Source: an uncultured Clostridia bacterium
GTDB lineage: Bacteria > Bacillota > Clostridia > Christensenellales > Pumilibacteraceae
Reading direction: 5' to 3'
Length of the DNA stretch: 64,000 nt
NCBI GenBank assembly: GCA_944372345.1
Contig: CALVYT010000005.1
Coordinates: 1-64,000 of the forward strand
A program made the position numbers and the translations under genes. The notes below the pieces were generated by a model, which worked only from the letters and a program-made list of their open reading frames with translations, was not told where the DNA came from and ran no database searches. Position 1 is the stretch's first letter, and each line of letters begins with the position of its first letter. Shown here in pieces: positions 37,247-64,000 of this stretch.

Positions 37247-37275
37247 TTGACATACCCGCCGCTTTATGGTATTAT
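37247..37275 (+). promoter_or_regulatory. Sigma-A promoter of the GH3-like gene
   Basis: TTGACA (37247-37252), 17 bp, TATTAT (37270-37275). Confidence 0.85.
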
Positions 37276-37297
37276 TTACTCGGTCGGAGGGCGGCGA

Positions 37298-40270
37298 ATG
37301 AAGAGATTATCCGTCAAAAAGACAATAACCCTGTGCGCGGTGAGCGGAGTGCTCATCGCCTGTATCGTCGTCAGCGCGGTGCTCACGACGGTATACAAGC
37401 AGGCTATCTCCGATTATTTCGGGCAGGAAACGTCGCGTATCGTCAATCCCGGCGACCCGATATACACGAGCGACTTTTCGTCTGACGCCAAACGCCGCAT
37501 ACACGCCGAAGCGGTGTGCCGCGATATCGAGGCGGAGGGCATAGTCCTGCTTAAAAACGGCGACGTGCAGACGGAGAACGGCTCCGCGCCGTCCCTGCCG
37601 CTCGCCAAGTGCGCGCGCGTCAGCGTGTTCGGCGTCGGAGCGAGGGACTTCCTTTACGGCGGCACGGTATCGGATACGGCGTCCGTTTCCGACCCCGTGA
37701 CGTTTTACCGCGCTCTCGTAGAATCGGGATTTTACGTCAATCCGACGCTGCGCGATTTTTATTCGTCGGGCGCGGGCAGGAATTACGGCAGGAAGGTCAC
37801 GCAGTATCCCGCCGATCTCGACATAGGCGAAGTGCCCGTCGGAGAGTATTTCGCCGACGGCGGGCTTGCGGCAAGCTATAACGAATTTTCCGACGCGGCG
37901 ATAGTCGTTATCGGCAGGAGCGGGCTGGACGGCTACGACGTGCCGCAGGAAATGCGCGATTACCGCGCGCTCGACGACAACGAGCTCGCGCTCCTTTCCT
38001 ATGTGAACGATAATTTCGACAACGTGGTGCTTGTGATCAATTCCGCCGAGCCGATGATGATCGGGGAAGCGGAGGCGGATTCCGTGCTCTGGGTGGGCAA
38101 TCCCGGCACGACGGGCGCGCGCGCGATAGGGTATGTGCTCAACGGCTACGTATCTCCGTCGGGGCGGCTCACCGACACCTGGGCTTACGACCAATCGTCC
38201 GCGCCGTCCTCCGTCAATACGGGAACGTTCCGTTTCGACTGGCCGGTCTCGGGCGCGCCGAACGCGGACGACTCGGACCATTACGTCGTGCTCGCAGAGG
38301 GCGTGTACGTCGGTTACCGCTATTACGAAACGAGATACGAGGACTACGTTCTCGAAGCCGGCGACCCCGGCGGGTACGACTACGGGCAGACCGTGATATA
38401 TCCGTTCGGGCATGGGCTGAGTTATACGGAATTTGAATATTCCGCGGTGGACGTGACCCCGTCCGCCGACGGGTATGTCGTTTCGCTCATCGTCGCCAAC
38501 GTCGGGAACGCCGCGGGGAAGGAAGCGGTGCAGATATATATGCAGGCGCCGTACGACGCGGAGTCGGGCGTCGAACGCCCCTCCGTCGAGCTCGTCGGTT
38601 TTGCCAAAACGGAAACATTGCAGCCGGGCGGAGGCGAGGACGGCAGGGCGGCGGTGACGGTCAGCGTTCCGCGTTCCGCACTCGAAGTCTACGACTCGTC
38701 GGCTCGCGGCGGCGAGGGCGCGCACGTCATACAGGGCGGCGAATATTATTTCACGGCTGCGCCCGACGCGCACGCCGCGGTCAACAATATACTCGCATAC
38801 AAAGCCGCAAACGGCTCGGAGTTCGACTCTTCGCGCGCGGACGCTTCGTATGCCGAAGCGGACGCCGCTCTCGTCGGCTCCGTAACGATAGCGGGCGACG
38901 CGGAAGACACGGACGCTCCTACGGATGCGCAGGCGGAGCAGGCGGATGAGGATACGGACAGCGGCTCCGAAAGCGCGCCGCAGGAGCCGGAAGAGGGCAA
39001 TAAGTTCACCGAGGCGGACATAAGGACTTACGACGAAGGATTCGAATATCTTTCGCGTTCGGACTGGGCGGGGACTTATCCGACGGAGGCGTATGCGGGA
39101 GGCTCGTGGCTCGCGAGCGCGGAGCTTGCGGAGAACATGGCTGTCGATACGTCGTATATGGAAAGCGGCCCGGCGGGAGCCGACTCCGTCGCGCCCGCGG
39201 GAGATCTGAAAGCGTTCGATCTGATCGAGGCGGAATACGGCGACGAGCGGTTCTCCGAGCTTGCGGCGATGATGTCGCGCTCGGAAAAGGCGGAGTTCGT
39301 GCATATGGGCGGCTATACGATAAACGGCGTGGAAAAGATCTCGATGCCGTCGGCGAGCTGCCGCGACGGAGCGACGGGAGTCAGCGGCGCGGGAGTAGGG
39401 TCGTATTCCCCCGAAACGTCGTACCCGACGCCGTCCGTAGTCGCCGCGACGTGGAACACGGAACGCGCCGAGCAGCTCGGCGTATGCCTGTCCGAGGACT
39501 CGCTCGGGCTGGACGTCAGCGGAGTGTTTTTGCAGTCGTTCGGTCTGCGCCGCAGCCTGAATGCGGGCGGCGGGCACAGGTCGTTCGGCGAAGACCCGCT
39601 GCTTTCCGGCGTTATAGGCGCGGCGGAAGTGCGCGGCATCCGCACTAAGATGAGCTTTGCGGTCATAGGCGATCTCGCGTTCTCCGTTCAGCTCGATCAC
39701 GCCCGCGGGCTTGCCGTGTTCGGCAGCGAACAGGCGTTCAGGGATATTTATCTGCGTCCGTTCGAGATCGCGGTGAAAGAGGGAGACGCGGGCGCGGTGA
39801 TACAGTCCGCTTCTCGCGTCGGCACGCGCTGGGTAGGCGCGCACTCGGGGCTGATGACGGATATACTCCGCAGCGAATGGGGTTTCGAGGGAATGACTAT
39901 GACTTCGCGCGACAGCCGCGGCGGGCTGATGGATATAGCGTCGGGCTTGTGCGCGGGGACGGATATGTGGTTCAACAGCAGCGCGGCGGTGTTCCTGCTG
40001 ACGGGCGAGCAGCTCGGTTGCTCGGCTGTCGCGGACGCGCTCACGCGCGCGGCTTATAACGTCGTATACACGGTCGTTACGTCCAACGCGATGAACGGGA
40101 TGACGGAGAACTCGGGAGTTGAGGAAGGCATAATACCGCCGTGGCAGATCGTGTATATCGTCATAGCGTCGTTAGTGGCTGCGGGCGCGGCAGTGATGCT
40201 GCTTATTGTCGTGATAAACCGCATAGCGACGAGGAAAAAACATCCCGAAACGACGGTCGCCGTCGGGTGA
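37298..40270 (+). CDS. Membrane-anchored, circularly permuted GH3-family protein with a degenerate active site
   Basis: A 990-residue protein with a membrane helix at each end (~9-34 and ~945-970). Between them the glycoside hydrolase 3 domains occur in swapped order: C-terminal alpha/beta domain first (~55-360, e.g. VLWVGNPGTTGARA, SPSGRLTDTW, YPFGHGLSYTEFEY), FnIII-like domain (~370-490), acidic linker (~560-600), then the barrel domain (~640-925). In the barrel the nucleophile position of the usual GFxGxVxxD motif is Ser870 (GFEGMTMTSRD) and the usual KHF motif reads GDL, so catalysis by the standard mechanism is doubtful. Start ATG 37298 follows GGAGG. Confidence 0.82.
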   Translation: MKRLSVKKTITLCAVSGVLIACIVVSAVLTTVYKQAISDYFGQETSRIVNPGDPIYTSDFSSDAKRRIHAEAVCRDIEAEGIVLLKNGDVQTENGSAPSLPLAKCARVSVFGVGARDFLYGGTVSDTASVSDPVTFYRALVESGFYVNPTLRDFYSSGAGRNYGRKVTQYPADLDIGEVPVGEYFADGGLAASYNEFSDAAIVVIGRSGLDGYDVPQEMRDYRALDDNELALLSYVNDNFDNVVLVINSAEPMMIGEAEADSVLWVGNPGTTGARAIGYVLNGYVSPSGRLTDTWAYDQSSAPSSVNTGTFRFDWPVSGAPNADDSDHYVVLAEGVYVGYRYYETRYEDYVLEAGDPGGYDYGQTVIYPFGHGLSYTEFEYSAVDVTPSADGYVVSLIVANVGNAAGKEAVQIYMQAPYDAESGVERPSVELVGFAKTETLQPGGGEDGRAAVTVSVPRSALEVYDSSARGGEGAHVIQGGEYYFTAAPDAHAAVNNILAYKAANGSEFDSSRADASYAEADAALVGSVTIAGDAEDTDAPTDAQAEQADEDTDSGSESAPQEPEEGNKFTEADIRTYDEGFEYLSRSDWAGTYPTEAYAGGSWLASAELAENMAVDTSYMESGPAGADSVAPAGDLKAFDLIEAEYGDERFSELAAMMSRSEKAEFVHMGGYTINGVEKISMPSASCRDGATGVSGAGVGSYSPETSYPTPSVVAATWNTERAEQLGVCLSEDSLGLDVSGVFLQSFGLRRSLNAGGGHRSFGEDPLLSGVIGAAEVRGIRTKMSFAVIGDLAFSVQLDHARGLAVFGSEQAFRDIYLRPFEIAVKEGDAGAVIQSASRVGTRWVGAHSGLMTDILRSEWGFEGMTMTSRDSRGGLMDIASGLCAGTDMWFNSSAAVFLLTGEQLGCSAVADALTRAAYNVVYTVVTSNAMNGMTENSGVEEGIIPPWQIVYIVIASLVAAGAAVMLLIVVINRIATRKKHPETTVAVG

Positions 40271-59925: not shown

Positions 59926-60987
59926 TTACGCGAGGTTATCCGCTATGATCCTGCCCGCTTCGCGGCAGCCGACGCGTTTGCCTTCGCCGAGGTCGGGAGT
60001 TCTCCAGCCGTCGGCGATGAACTTCGCGACGGCGCGTTCGACGGCGCGCGCAGAGCTTTCCATTCCTATGTTGTCGAGCAGCATCGCGGCGGCGAGTATA
60101 GTCGCTATGGGGTTGGCGACGTCCTTACCCGCTATGTCGGGCGCGCTGCCGTGTATCGGCTCGAACAGCCCCGCCTTTTCCGTGCCGAGCGACGATGAAG
60201 GCAGCAGCCCTATCGAGCCGGTTATCTGACTCGCTTCGTCGCTTAGTATATCGCCGAACATATTGGGGCAGAGCAGTACGTCGAATTGCGAAGGATCGCG
60301 CACGAGCTGCATAGCGGCGTTATCGACGTACATATGCCCGAGTTCGACGTCGGGATAGCTTTCGTGTACTTCTTCGACTACGCGTCTCCATAACCGCGAG
60401 GACATCAGTACGTTGGCTTTATCAACGCTCGTGACTTTGCCGCGCCGTCCGCGCGCGAGGTCGAACGCGACTTTGGCTATGCGGCGCACCTCGTCTTCCG
60501 AATATATCTCGGTGTCGTAAGCCGTTTTTCCGCCGTTCGTGTCGCCGCGCGGTCCGAAGTAGATACCGCCGATGAGTTCCCTGACGACCATGACGTTCAC
60601 GCCGCGATCCAGCACTTCTTTTTTGAGCGGACTTGCCGCGGACAGCTCGGGATAAATGACCGCGGGGCGGAGATTTGCGAACAGTCCGAGGGCTTTGCGT
60701 ATACCGAGCAGTCCCTTTTCGGGACGTATGTCCGCGGGTAACGCGTCCCACTTGGGTCCGCCTACCGCTCCGAGCAGCACGCCGTCGGACGCCTTGCACG
60801 ACGTGACGGTTTCGTCCGGCAGCGGCACGCCGAATTCGTCTATTGCGCAGCCGCCTATCTTTCTGCGATCGAACGCGAATTTTACTCCGGCTTTTTCCGC
60901 CGCTCTTTCTAATACGTTTATGGCGGCATCGGTTATTTCCGGACCTATTCCGTCTCCGGCAAGGACGGTTATTTTTTTTGTTTCCAT
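59926..60987 (-). CDS. leuB: 3-isopropylmalate dehydrogenase
   Basis: A 353-residue LeuB, the NAD- and Mg-dependent enzyme of leucine synthesis. Signatures: VLAGDGIGPEITDAAINVL at the start, LLGAVGGPKW, the substrate Arg set, the LeuB-type REL-GGIYFGPRG segment, Lys in TSVDKANVL, and Mg/NAD site VDNAAMQLV ... NMFGDILSDEASQITGS (quoted in part). GGAGAAG precedes the start at 60987 (METKKITVLAG). leuC, leuD and leuA are not in the window. Confidence 0.96.
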   Translation of the reverse strand: METKKITVLAGDGIGPEITDAAINVLERAAEKAGVKFAFDRRKIGGCAIDEFGVPLPDETVTSCKASDGVLLGAVGGPKWDALPADIRPEKGLLGIRKALGLFANLRPAVIYPELSAASPLKKEVLDRGVNVMVVRELIGGIYFGPRGDTNGGKTAYDTEIYSEDEVRRIAKVAFDLARGRRGKVTSVDKANVLMSSRLWRRVVEEVHESYPDVELGHMYVDNAAMQLVRDPSQFDVLLCPNMFGDILSDEASQITGSIGLLPSSSLGTEKAGLFEPIHGSAPDIAGKDVANPIATILAAAMLLDNIGMESSARAVERAVAKFIADGWRTPDLGEGKRVGCREAGRIIADNLA

Positions 60988-61053
60988 AATGCTTCTCCGT
61001 GTGTTCCGGGCGCCGCGCGCGTTGTGCCTGCGTCCGCTTTTTTCTTCTATCGT

Positions 61054-61082
61054 ATTGTAGCACAACCGTGCTTTGCCGTCAA
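61054..61082 (-). promoter_or_regulatory. Sigma-A promoter of leuB
   Basis: Minus strand TTGACG (61082-61077), 17 bp, TACAAT (61059-61054). The 346-bp gap 60988-61333 also must hold the promoter of the divergent XRE gene; TTTACA (61130) has no convincing -10 partner, so I do not call one. Confidence 0.8.
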
Positions 61083-61333
61083 GCAATGACGGCTTCGTGA
61101 AAATATTTGCTTCTTTCGTGCGTTAATGCTTTACATCGAGGGGGGAGGGTATGATATGGTATATACACGTGCGTGAGTAACGTTTAACGGCGAAATCGCG
61201 CAAAAAGCGGTCACGGCGCCGTGCGCTGCCGCTGACTCTCATACGACGAGAGAAACAAAATTCGGATTTTCTATTGAAACGGGAGCTGCAATGTGATATG
61301 TTTGTTACGGAACGGCGGCTACGGGAGGGAAAG

Positions 61334-62596
61334 ATGAATGCAGAGATAATAGGCAGGCATATACGCGAATATCGGGAAAAACATAAACTGACGCAGAAGC
61401 AGCTTGCCGAAATGCTGTATGTTTCGGACAGAACGATAAGCCGCTGGGAGCGCGGAAACGGGCTTCCCGACATCGACGAACTGCCCCGTATCGCACGCCT
61501 GCTCGGCATATCGCTCAATGAACTCGTCGGCGAACCGCCGACCGCCGACACGCATACGGCAGACTCGCCTGTCGCAGATCCTTCGCCCGACGGAATCGGG
61601 ACGGCGGAAAAAGGCGGGCGCAACCGGCGAAGCGACGTTTTTTCCGTCGTAATATCGCTTGCGTTGCTTGTTCTTGTCGCCGTCGCGGCGATCGTGACTG
61701 CGGCGGGTTACGGGACGTTTGAAACGAAAGAATCGACGTATGTGTTTGAAGCGGAGGACGCGCTGTTTTCGGATTCGTTCAGAGTGGAGGACGCGGACGG
61801 CGCGAGCGGCGGCAAGGTAGCTGCGTGGCTGCATACGTCCGGAACGAAGATTACATTCAAAGTAAATGCGTCGCGTTCGGCGCGCGCCGTGCTCGGGCTG
61901 CGGGTGAACAGGGCGAAACCGTTCGTATTCGAGGATAAAATGCTGCTTGGCATTAACGGAATGCCGCATGAGGTGGGAGTAGTGCCCGGACTGGGTTTCG
62001 ACGGCAGCGCGGAGGAACTGTACTACAAGTTCGGCGAACCTATAGAGACGGACGTCATACTGAAAAAAGGCGAGAACGTCATTACGATAACCATTGTGGA
62101 CGGGTATAATCTGAATATCGACTGTCTGGAATTTACTACGACGGCAAAACTGTATCTCGCGCTGCGTGATTATGACTTTGAAGCGGAGGACGCGGACGTC
62201 AGCGGACTGTATTCCGTCATAGACTCTGAAAAGGCAAGCGGCGGCAGATATGTCGGCGATCTGGAACGCGACGGAGCAACGGTGAATTTTTCGATAGCGT
62301 CGGATATGACGGCGTATGTTATGATGCGGATATATATCAACCATCCGTTCGATACGACGTTCGAGAGCAGATTCCTGCTGACGGTGAACGGCAGCGCCGT
62401 CACCGTAGGCGAGGCGAAAGGCACCGGATATATGAACGGTGCGGACAGATATACGGAATTTACGTCGCCGTTCACAGTGGGGATAGAACTCAAAGAAGGA
62501 GAAAACGCGATCGCGTTCACGACCGTCGCGGAGGCGAATTTCGACAGGATAAGTTTTTACACGTCGCTGTCGCTCAGTGCGGCGAAGGAGGCATAA
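61334..62596 (+). CDS. Transmembrane XRE-type regulator with two extracellular carbohydrate-binding-like domains
   Basis: A 420-residue one-component membrane regulator. Residues 5-66 are an XRE helix-turn-helix (LTQKQLAEMLYVSDRTISRWERG, quoted in part). A disordered Thr/Asp/Pro linker (~68-100) leads to one membrane helix (~103-124). Outside are two similar beta-sandwich modules, ~136-272 starting YVFEAEDALFSDS and ~283-413 starting YDFEAEDADVSG; the EAEDA start and ASGG(K/R) follow-up are the signature of CBM6/35-like sugar-binding modules. GGGAGGG precedes ATG 61334. The permuted GH3 gene follows 110 bp later. Sugar sensing is inferred. Confidence 0.82.
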   Translation: MNAEIIGRHIREYREKHKLTQKQLAEMLYVSDRTISRWERGNGLPDIDELPRIARLLGISLNELVGEPPTADTHTADSPVADPSPDGIGTAEKGGRNRRSDVFSVVISLALLVLVAVAAIVTAAGYGTFETKESTYVFEAEDALFSDSFRVEDADGASGGKVAAWLHTSGTKITFKVNASRSARAVLGLRVNRAKPFVFEDKMLLGINGMPHEVGVVPGLGFDGSAEELYYKFGEPIETDVILKKGENVITITIVDGYNLNIDCLEFTTTAKLYLALRDYDFEAEDADVSGLYSVIDSEKASGGRYVGDLERDGATVNFSIASDMTAYVMMRIYINHPFDTTFESRFLLTVNGSAVTVGEAKGTGYMNGADRYTEFTSPFTVGIELKEGENAIAFTTVAEANFDRISFYTSLSLSAAKEA

Positions 62597-62706
62597 AAAG
62601 ACAAAGCGGCTCACCGGAAGGAGCGGAACAAGTTACGAAAGGGCACACTCACGGTCTTGTCCGCGTAAAAACGCGGTCGGGATAAATTTACCGTCAAGGA
62701 GGAAGA

Positions 62707-64000
62707 ATGAAAAAAAGATTCGTGATCTTGTGGAGCGTGCTTGCGGGAGTTTTCGCATTACTGCTTATCGCGCTTTGCATAGGAAGCGGCTTCGCGGACT
62801 ATTACGCGAGCCAACTGAACTCGTTTTTCAACATTATCCCTTATGAAAGGATAGAGGACGAGTTCGCGGAAGCGGGGGACACTCAGTACTATAAACCCAA
62901 GTTCTCCCGTCTTGCGTCGGATAGCGAAAAGGAGGAGGCGGAGGAGAACGGACAGCCTGCGTTCACCTACATAGCCGACAAGGAAGCGCTGTACGAATAC
63001 GACAAGGAAGTTGCTCGCGAAGCCGCTGCGAACGGCGCGGTGCTGCTGTGGAACAACGACAAGGCTCTGCCGCTGACGGACAAAACCAAAATCGTCAATT
63101 TCTACGGCGGGCGCAGCGTAAACTGGCTGTATGTGACCGACGGCTCGGGCGGCACCAGAATGAGCGAGCATCCGACGGTACGTGCCGCTTTTGAGGCGCA
63201 GGGGTATACCGTCAACGATGCGCTGTGGACATGGTATCAGTCGCATAGTTACGGTACGGGCACCGGCACGATAAGCGAAACGACGTGGGACTCCGCGATA
63301 GAGAGCAACACCGTGCCGGGCGTCGGTATCTATGTAATATCGCGCAAAGGCTCGGAAGGAGCCGATCTTGCGATGACGGGTACGGACGGCGAGAACGGCA
63401 ATCTGACTGCGCTGTCGCCAAACGAACGCGCTCATCTCGACAACCTCGTCGCGATGAGAGAAGCGGGCAAGCTGAGTAAAGTGATAGTACTGCTCAACAC
63501 AGTTTCGATGGGCGTGCAGTTTGACAGACTGTCGGACTATAAGGACGACATAGACGCGTGTATGTGGGTAGGTCTCGGCGGAACGAGCGGTCCCGACGCC
63601 GTAGCGGATCTTGTGAGCGGCGCCGCAGTGCCGAGCGGCAGGCTGTCGGACACGTTCCTCTATAACAATTTGTCCGCGCCGAGCACGGAAAACAACGGCA
63701 ACTACGACTATCTCGGTATGGACGGATATGCGGGTAACGCGGTGTACGACAAACTGCTGCGCGCGCAGGGAACTACGGACTCGACGGAAAAGAATTTCAA
63801 ATACCTCGTCTATCAGGAAGGCATTTACGTCGGTTACAGGTATTACGAAACGCGTTATGAGGACAGCGTGCTCGGGCGCGGCAACGCCAACGGGTCGGAA
63901 GGCTCGACGAGCGCGGGCAGCTGGGACTATGCGGCGGAAGTGGCGTTCCCGTTCGGCTACGGGCTGAGCTATACTACGTTCTCTTACTCCGATTTCGACG
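62707..64000 (+). CDS. Membrane-anchored permuted GH3-family protein (partial, runs off the window)
   Basis: The first ~431 residues of a gene cut by the window end. After a membrane helix (~5-29) comes the GH3 C-terminal alpha/beta domain placed first, as in the protein at 37298: NGAVLLWNNDKALPL, NFYGGRSVNW, VGLGGTSGPDAVADLV, VPSGRLSDTFLY, YRYYETRYEDSVLG and FPFGYGLSYTTFSY. The barrel domain with the nucleophile would follow beyond 64000, so activity cannot be judged. GGAGG lies just before ATG 62707. It probably forms a unit with the XRE-CBM regulator. Confidence 0.82.
   Translation, partial: MKKRFVILWSVLAGVFALLLIALCIGSGFADYYASQLNSFFNIIPYERIEDEFAEAGDTQYYKPKFSRLASDSEKEEAEENGQPAFTYIADKEALYEYDKEVAREAAANGAVLLWNNDKALPLTDKTKIVNFYGGRSVNWLYVTDGSGGTRMSEHPTVRAAFEAQGYTVNDALWTWYQSHSYGTGTGTISETTWDSAIESNTVPGVGIYVISRKGSEGADLAMTGTDGENGNLTALSPNERAHLDNLVAMREAGKLSKVIVLLNTVSMGVQFDRLSDYKDDIDACMWVGLGGTSGPDAVADLVSGAAVPSGRLSDTFLYNNLSAPSTENNGNYDYLGMDGYAGNAVYDKLLRAQGTTDSTEKNFKYLVYQEGIYVGYRYYETRYEDSVLGRGNANGSEGSTSAGSWDYAAEVAFPFGYGLSYTTFSYSDFD

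Follow-up and report, generated by a model that had tools for sequence, protein, structure and literature searches.

The window, a stretch of 64,000 nucleotides from contig C5 of an uncultured Clostridia bacterium, ends in a gene for a membrane-bound regulator that is followed on the same strand by a gene for a membrane GH3-family protein. The features of this region are as follows.

61274 to 61302, + strand: sigma-70-like promoter match (TTGAAA, spacing of 17, TATGTT, with TG before the -10) ahead of the regulator, a consensus match only.
61323 to 61329, + strand: ribosome binding site GGGAGGG, read from the sequence, before the ATG at 61334.
61334 to 62596, + strand: regulator gene including the stop codon (61334 to 62593 without it), encoding an XRE-TM-CBM-CBM protein of 420 aa.
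61361 to 61525, + strand: HTH_3 (XRE) domain, residues 10 to 64 (Pfam E 2.7e-17; AlphaFold pLDDT about 90).
61640 to 61711, + strand: single transmembrane (TM) helix, residues about 103 to 126 (hydropathy scan, AlphaFold helix, charge pattern).
61739 to 62137, + strand: CBM6/35-like module 1, predicted extracellular, residues about 136 to 268 (profile, pLDDT 92.4, Foldseek 2w47 TMt 0.77).
62171 to 62569, + strand: CBM6/35-like module 2, predicted extracellular, residues about 280 to 412 (profile, AlphaFold, Foldseek 2w1w TMt 0.76).
62707 to 65739, + strand: permuted membrane GH3, 1011 aa, of which the window holds 62707 to 64000 (Glyco_hydro_3_C at 63040 to 63837; TIM barrel past the window).

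The preliminary description of this DNA had proposed that an XRE head is linked through a single membrane helix to two outside modules, and this arrangement was confirmed. The hydropathy scan of the regulator found one TM segment, and the full-chain AlphaFold model gave a confident HTH, a helix at 100 to 125 and a confident second module. Model confidence was low in the cytoplasmic linker (residues 70 to 101) and in the stretch after the TM helix, both of which are probably flexible. Basic residues lie on the N-terminal side of the helix and acidic residues on the C-terminal side, which argues for an N-in/C-out topology with the HTH inside and the modules outside. An HTH_3 domain and one TM helix in a single chain is the structure expected of the membrane one-component regulators known as TTRs. 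The heads of the TTRs ToxR and CadC are OmpR-type winged helices; Pfam gave no match to that fold in the regulator and the significant models were all XRE-type HTH. Pfam also found no histidine kinase domain, receiver domain or RsgI_N in the chain. An ECF52/53 sigma factor was considered and rejected, the sole Sigma70_r4 match over the HTH being at chance level (0.037, Pfam). The gross layout of HTH, TM helix and beta domain is also that of RodZ, and the protein could on this ground be a scaffold whose HTH binds protein rather than DNA and not a transcription factor at all. We regard this as barely credible because the head is HTH_3 (2.7e-17) whereas HTH_25 scored 0.13, the RodZ C-terminal domain was not reported by Pfam, and the gene lies in an inserted GH3 operon away from cell-shape genes.

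The ectodomain consists of two FEAEDA modules, which had been described as sugar-binding-like. A profile was built from 13 FEAE-type modules (the two of the regulator together with modules of its homologue in genome G038, the downstream lipoproteins and other loci) and compared with solved CBM35-type chains, where it matched 5x7o at 5e-19, 2wz8 at 9e-14 and 2w47 at 1.4e-9. Module 1 modelled alone reached a pLDDT of 92.4 and Foldseek TM-scores of 0.77 to 0.80 to 2w47/2w1w, and module 2, taken from the full-chain model, scored 0.76 to the CBM35 2w1w. As a single sequence the score to Pfam CBM_35 was 20.8 bits (4.9e-4), under the curated cut-off (28), and we therefore keep to the term CBM6/35-like. 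An E..E pair near the module N-terminus and a D near the C-terminus are conserved, and the core residues are kept in both regulator modules; we take the conserved residues to be the structural calcium site of the CBM6/35 fold. By profile and structural model the sugar-binding-like description holds: both modules are CBM6/CBM35-like β-sandwiches, and glycan binding is predicted for them.

The neighbour is a permuted membrane GH3, as had been claimed. Its domains run in the order C domain (112 to 377), Fn3-like domain (456 to 531) and TIM barrel (726 to 893) by Pfam, i.e. permuted or domain-swapped, with TM segments at both ends. The nucleophile Asp (SDG), the KH pair and the GRN..EYYSED motif are all kept, as expected of a GH3. 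Among solved GH3 chains, 5wug and 5k6l carry the barrel in their C-terminal half, so a permuted GH3 is an already known kind, and the nearest solved relatives are named beta-glucosidases. The end at 64000 given earlier for the locus is the window edge. Reading the whole contig extended the GH3 to 65739 and revealed an operon of four co-directional genes from 61334 to 69483 with the regulator first. The third gene overlaps the GH3 gene by ATGA and its product, an 830-aa lipoprotein, has Big_3 domains in addition to three FEAE modules; the fourth encodes a 378-aa lipoprotein with one FEAE module, and the operon is closed by a strong 13-bp GC-rich terminator (contig 69514 to 69543). The modules of the regulator are thus of the same type as those of both operon lipoproteins. 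No protease gene was recognised in the operon.

Promoter consensus matches in the region numbered nine against a shuffle mean of 4.5. On the + strand up to the terminator there were only two promoter-like sites, one before the regulator and one within the GH3 gene, both consensus matches only. Searches of 61087 to 61333 and 62597 to 62706 for inverted repeats and for a shared motif or k-mer gave nothing above chance, and an Rfam scan of 60900 to 64000 gave no match. A 10-bp repeat 5' of the homologous regulator gene in G038 was considered as an operator and discounted, as it forms a terminator-like hairpin followed by T.

The operon lies in a discrete insertion. In five congeners leuD stands directly before leuB, and here 10.8 kb separates them (contig C5 61087 to 71885), indicating that the whole cassette, regulator included, behaves as one unit. 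Besides the operon, the insert encodes a small XRE protein and two related membrane proteins, and no recombinase gene was recognised within it. The regulator therefore came with, or joined, a discrete inserted cassette. By the searches made, an XRE-TM-CBM gene was present in 0 of 13 congeners.

Genome-wide, 25 permuted GH3 genes and about 38 CBM6/35-like modules were found in 1.69 Mb. This expansion is spread over contigs C6, C8, C9, C13, C18, C19, C26, C27, C28, C38 and C40 of the genome (G000). One of these genes (37247 to 40270, + strand) gives the window another permuted membrane GH3 and is divergent from the genes of an OmpR-type regulator/kinase pair. Its product has lost not only the nucleophile Asp, where TSR replaces SDG, but also the KH pair and GRN motif, and going by these residues is probably a catalytically dead relative; the other 24 of the 25 GH3s keep the nucleophile Asp. 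The GH3 family includes some members that act on bacterial wall sugars, and the operon GH3 and the proteins encoded with it have membrane or lipid anchors. The ectodomain might instead read the cell's own wall or capsule polymer in the service of envelope homeostasis, in which case the GH3 would remodel glycans of the cell itself and not food. We consider a role in self-surface sensing distinctly unlikely: the closest solved GH3 relatives are beta-glucosidases by name, some 25 GH3s and 38 modules in 1.7 Mb suit the use of diet or host glycans better, and the cassette is an insertion missing at the same site in congeners, unlike core envelope genes.

Control of the sister cassettes was assessed with profiles of the LytTR response regulator and the GHKL kinase, built from pairs beside GH3s (one pair was checked with Pfam), and all components were mapped. 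A LytTR response regulator and a GHKL kinase adjoin 14 GH3/CBM cassettes of the genome, which form PUL-like units under AgrA/AgrC-type control. The cassette of the regulator has no such pair and the XRE-TM-CBM gene occupies that position, which is the strongest argument for its being the regulator of the cassette; this one chain would do the job that a LytTR/GHKL pair probably does at most sister cassettes. The two kinds of system share their place beside the same kind of cassette but differ in build, as the pairs consist of two proteins, one a multi-pass kinase in which no CBM ectodomain was recognised and the other with a LytTR DNA-binding domain. These pairs are also the local alternative to the RsgI-type anti-sigma factors used as comparator in the preliminary description: the RsgI family was absent from the whole genome and the RsgI hypothesis was dropped. 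The proposal that the GH3 is the natural target is well supported by context, as the regulator is the first gene of a co-directional operon, stands in for the pair found at 14 cassettes and shares its module type with the lipoproteins; the promoter acted on would be that of the operon. Counting against this, CBM lipoproteins can do without a CBM-bearing regulator, as is seen at the two-component cassettes.

The regulator is best read as a member of the TTR class that senses the glycan of its cassette, and we think it likely that it works as a transmembrane one-component transcription regulator of its own operon. The outside CBM6/35-like modules would bind, at the cell surface, a glycan or a fragment that the neighbouring GH3 sets free, and binding would alter the dimer state, or the spacing or geometry, across the single TM helix. 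The cytoplasmic XRE head, for which we infer both DNA binding and the sign of regulation, would then change its hold on the operon promoter, and the regulator would control the operon's membrane GH3 and its two CBM lipoproteins, which would act on the glycan being sensed. A different route for the signal is regulated intramembrane proteolysis, in which ligand binding would expose the stalk to a first protease and an M50 site-2 protease would then free the HTH head as a soluble factor. Such cleavage has been proposed or established for the CBM-bearing ECF52 and RsgI proteins (PMC8999054, PMC5826349, PMC12203970), and the low-confidence, probably flexible linker at 70 to 101 and the similar stretch after the helix would suit it. 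The genome does encode M50 proteases, but so did 14 of 14 control genomes, making their presence uninformative. Pfam recognised no autoproteolysis domain or cleavage module between the helix and module 1, and the operon carries no recognised protease gene. By analogy with these systems such a route may operate, but we judge it unlikely and favour dimer rearrangement.

Membrane one-component regulators are widespread, with 50,302 counted in a TTR census in which the single-pass form was the commonest and helix-turn-helix the commonest DNA-binding domain (PMC10269533). Like ToxR, TcpP, CadC and their relatives the regulator joins a DNA-binding domain to one TM helix in one chain (PMC10269533); unlike ToxR and CadC it has an XRE/HTH_3 head, and its sensor is two CBM6/35-like modules as in the operon lipoproteins. 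The main text of the census makes no mention of a carbohydrate-binding ectodomain (PMC10269533). In ECF52 sigma factors a transcription factor is already combined with a membrane segment and a domain for carbohydrate binding (PMC5826349), and the ECF52/ECF53 sigma factors with regulatory extensions (SCO4117) resemble the regulator in having a transcription-initiating domain, one or more membrane helices and an outside carbohydrate-binding domain in one chain (PMC5826349, PMC8999054, PMC10766802). They are, however, sigma factors with a zinc-finger anti-sigma part and are described as exclusive to Actinobacteria, whereas the regulator has an XRE head, is from Clostridia and is encoded in one operon with the enzyme presumed to be its target. 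The RsgI/SigI system of Clostridium thermocellum is also single-pass with outside substrate-sensing modules and informs transcription for glycan degradation (PMC4711584, PMC12203970), but RsgI is an anti-sigma factor acting via a separate SigI and proteolysis. The hybrid two-component systems of Bacteroides PULs combine outside glycan sensing and DNA binding in one chain beside a glycan-degradation locus (PMC10766802, PMC10269533), and differ in having histidine kinase and receiver domains, which the regulator lacks. A review of hemicellulase gene control names three common systems, hybrid two-component systems, ECF sigma/anti-sigma factors and catabolite repression (PMC10766802). The direct HTH-TM-CBM layout that had been singled out earlier is not without parallel given the TTR class (PMC10269533) and ECF52 (PMC5826349). 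Searches of open-licence papers brought up no account of an XRE-TM-CBM regulator. The TTR class is known; the XRE-CBM variant is new and rare. If the proposed reading is true, joining an outside CBM straight to a DNA-binding head would give Gram-positive bacteria a glycan sensor that is very simple and readily rewired. The genome offers a natural comparison of related GH3/CBM cassettes, most under two-component control and one under one-component control, which makes signalling by a membrane-tethered transcription factor directly testable.

A survey for relatives recovered a homologue in another genus of the same family (G038; JAAWDP010000017.1) with 31% identity and an HTH, a TM helix and one module. 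At this locus (contig C9) genes for two module lipoproteins and for a permuted membrane GH3 come after the XRE-TM-module gene. In a species of the same genus (G003, contig C6) an XRE-TM protein with an ectodomain unrelated to CBM stands before a membrane GH3 and a lipoprotein; the ectodomain holds two copies of an unnamed domain that matches a domain of the neighbouring lipoprotein (phmmer 1e-12). With no Pfam match, this repeated ectodomain (L155, 72807 to 74441) is a candidate new surface-binding domain. The pairing of an XRE-TM gene with a membrane GH3 thus recurs twice, once with a CBM ectodomain (G038) and once with an unrelated one (G003). Excluding the given locus, 2 of 8 XRE-TM-ectodomain loci lie beside a GH3, weakly above chance at P about 0.05 by a hand estimate with a 3-kb limit and the GH3 density of the given genome.

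The contig scan for XRE-TM-CBM proteins gave G038 as its only true match; L103, L104 and L106 have modules but no XRE head, and L102 is an XRE protein without modules. Across the order, class and phylum samples (396, 391 and 399 genomes) the architecture was found in at least two species, G000 and G038, a lower bound: most matches were to the HTH, no more than six candidates were scored in each genome, and the architecture may in truth be commoner. The survey for XRE-TM proteins with CBM6/35 modules called for earlier thus added a second species, but with two species from a search of limited sensitivity conservation is thin. In the plasmid search no record spanned 80% of the regulator query, and those listed match the HTH only.

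The regulator ectodomain is homologous to a domain of a co-encoded lipoprotein in four loci: G000, G038, G003 and G064. In the last of these an XRE-XRE-TM protein with a GLUG-like ectodomain adjoins a lipoprotein that shares it (1.1e-21), and no GH3 was present in the stretch fetched. A repressor that merely silences the inserted cassette, with the modules as decoration tying it to the surface, would fit a self-contained leuD-leuB insertion headed by its own XRE gene. This sharing of ectodomain type with the lipoprotein in several loci would be unexpected of decoration, as would two separate CBM modules that both retain their conserved core residues, and we hold simple silencing to be highly unlikely. 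Returning to the glycan-sensing reading, it is possible, and we suggest it tentatively, that XRE-TM proteins in Clostridia form a modular class of 'mirror receptors' whose ectodomain is of the type carried by the surface lipoprotein of their own cassette (two loci have CBM6/35-like modules, G003 has repeats of an unnamed domain around a Big_3-like one, and G064 has a GLUG-like repeat), in which domain swaps would give new specificities and a regulator could replace a LytTR pair wholesale. The pattern is not universal, since at five XRE-TM-ectodomain loci (G036, G057, G070, G089a and G089b) the ectodomain did not recur in a neighbour within the stretches fetched. At G070 (L156, contig C16, 39992 to 43528) the XRE-TM protein is 1179 aa long and the start of its ectodomain resembles, by eye, a trypsin/HtrA-type serine protease. 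At a further locus (L064, contig C15 of G004, 486 to 2857) a membrane-anchored protein with two FEAE modules is encoded directly 3' of an AgrC-like kinase gene and may be a separate partner protein that senses glycan on behalf of a kinase lacking an ectodomain of its own.
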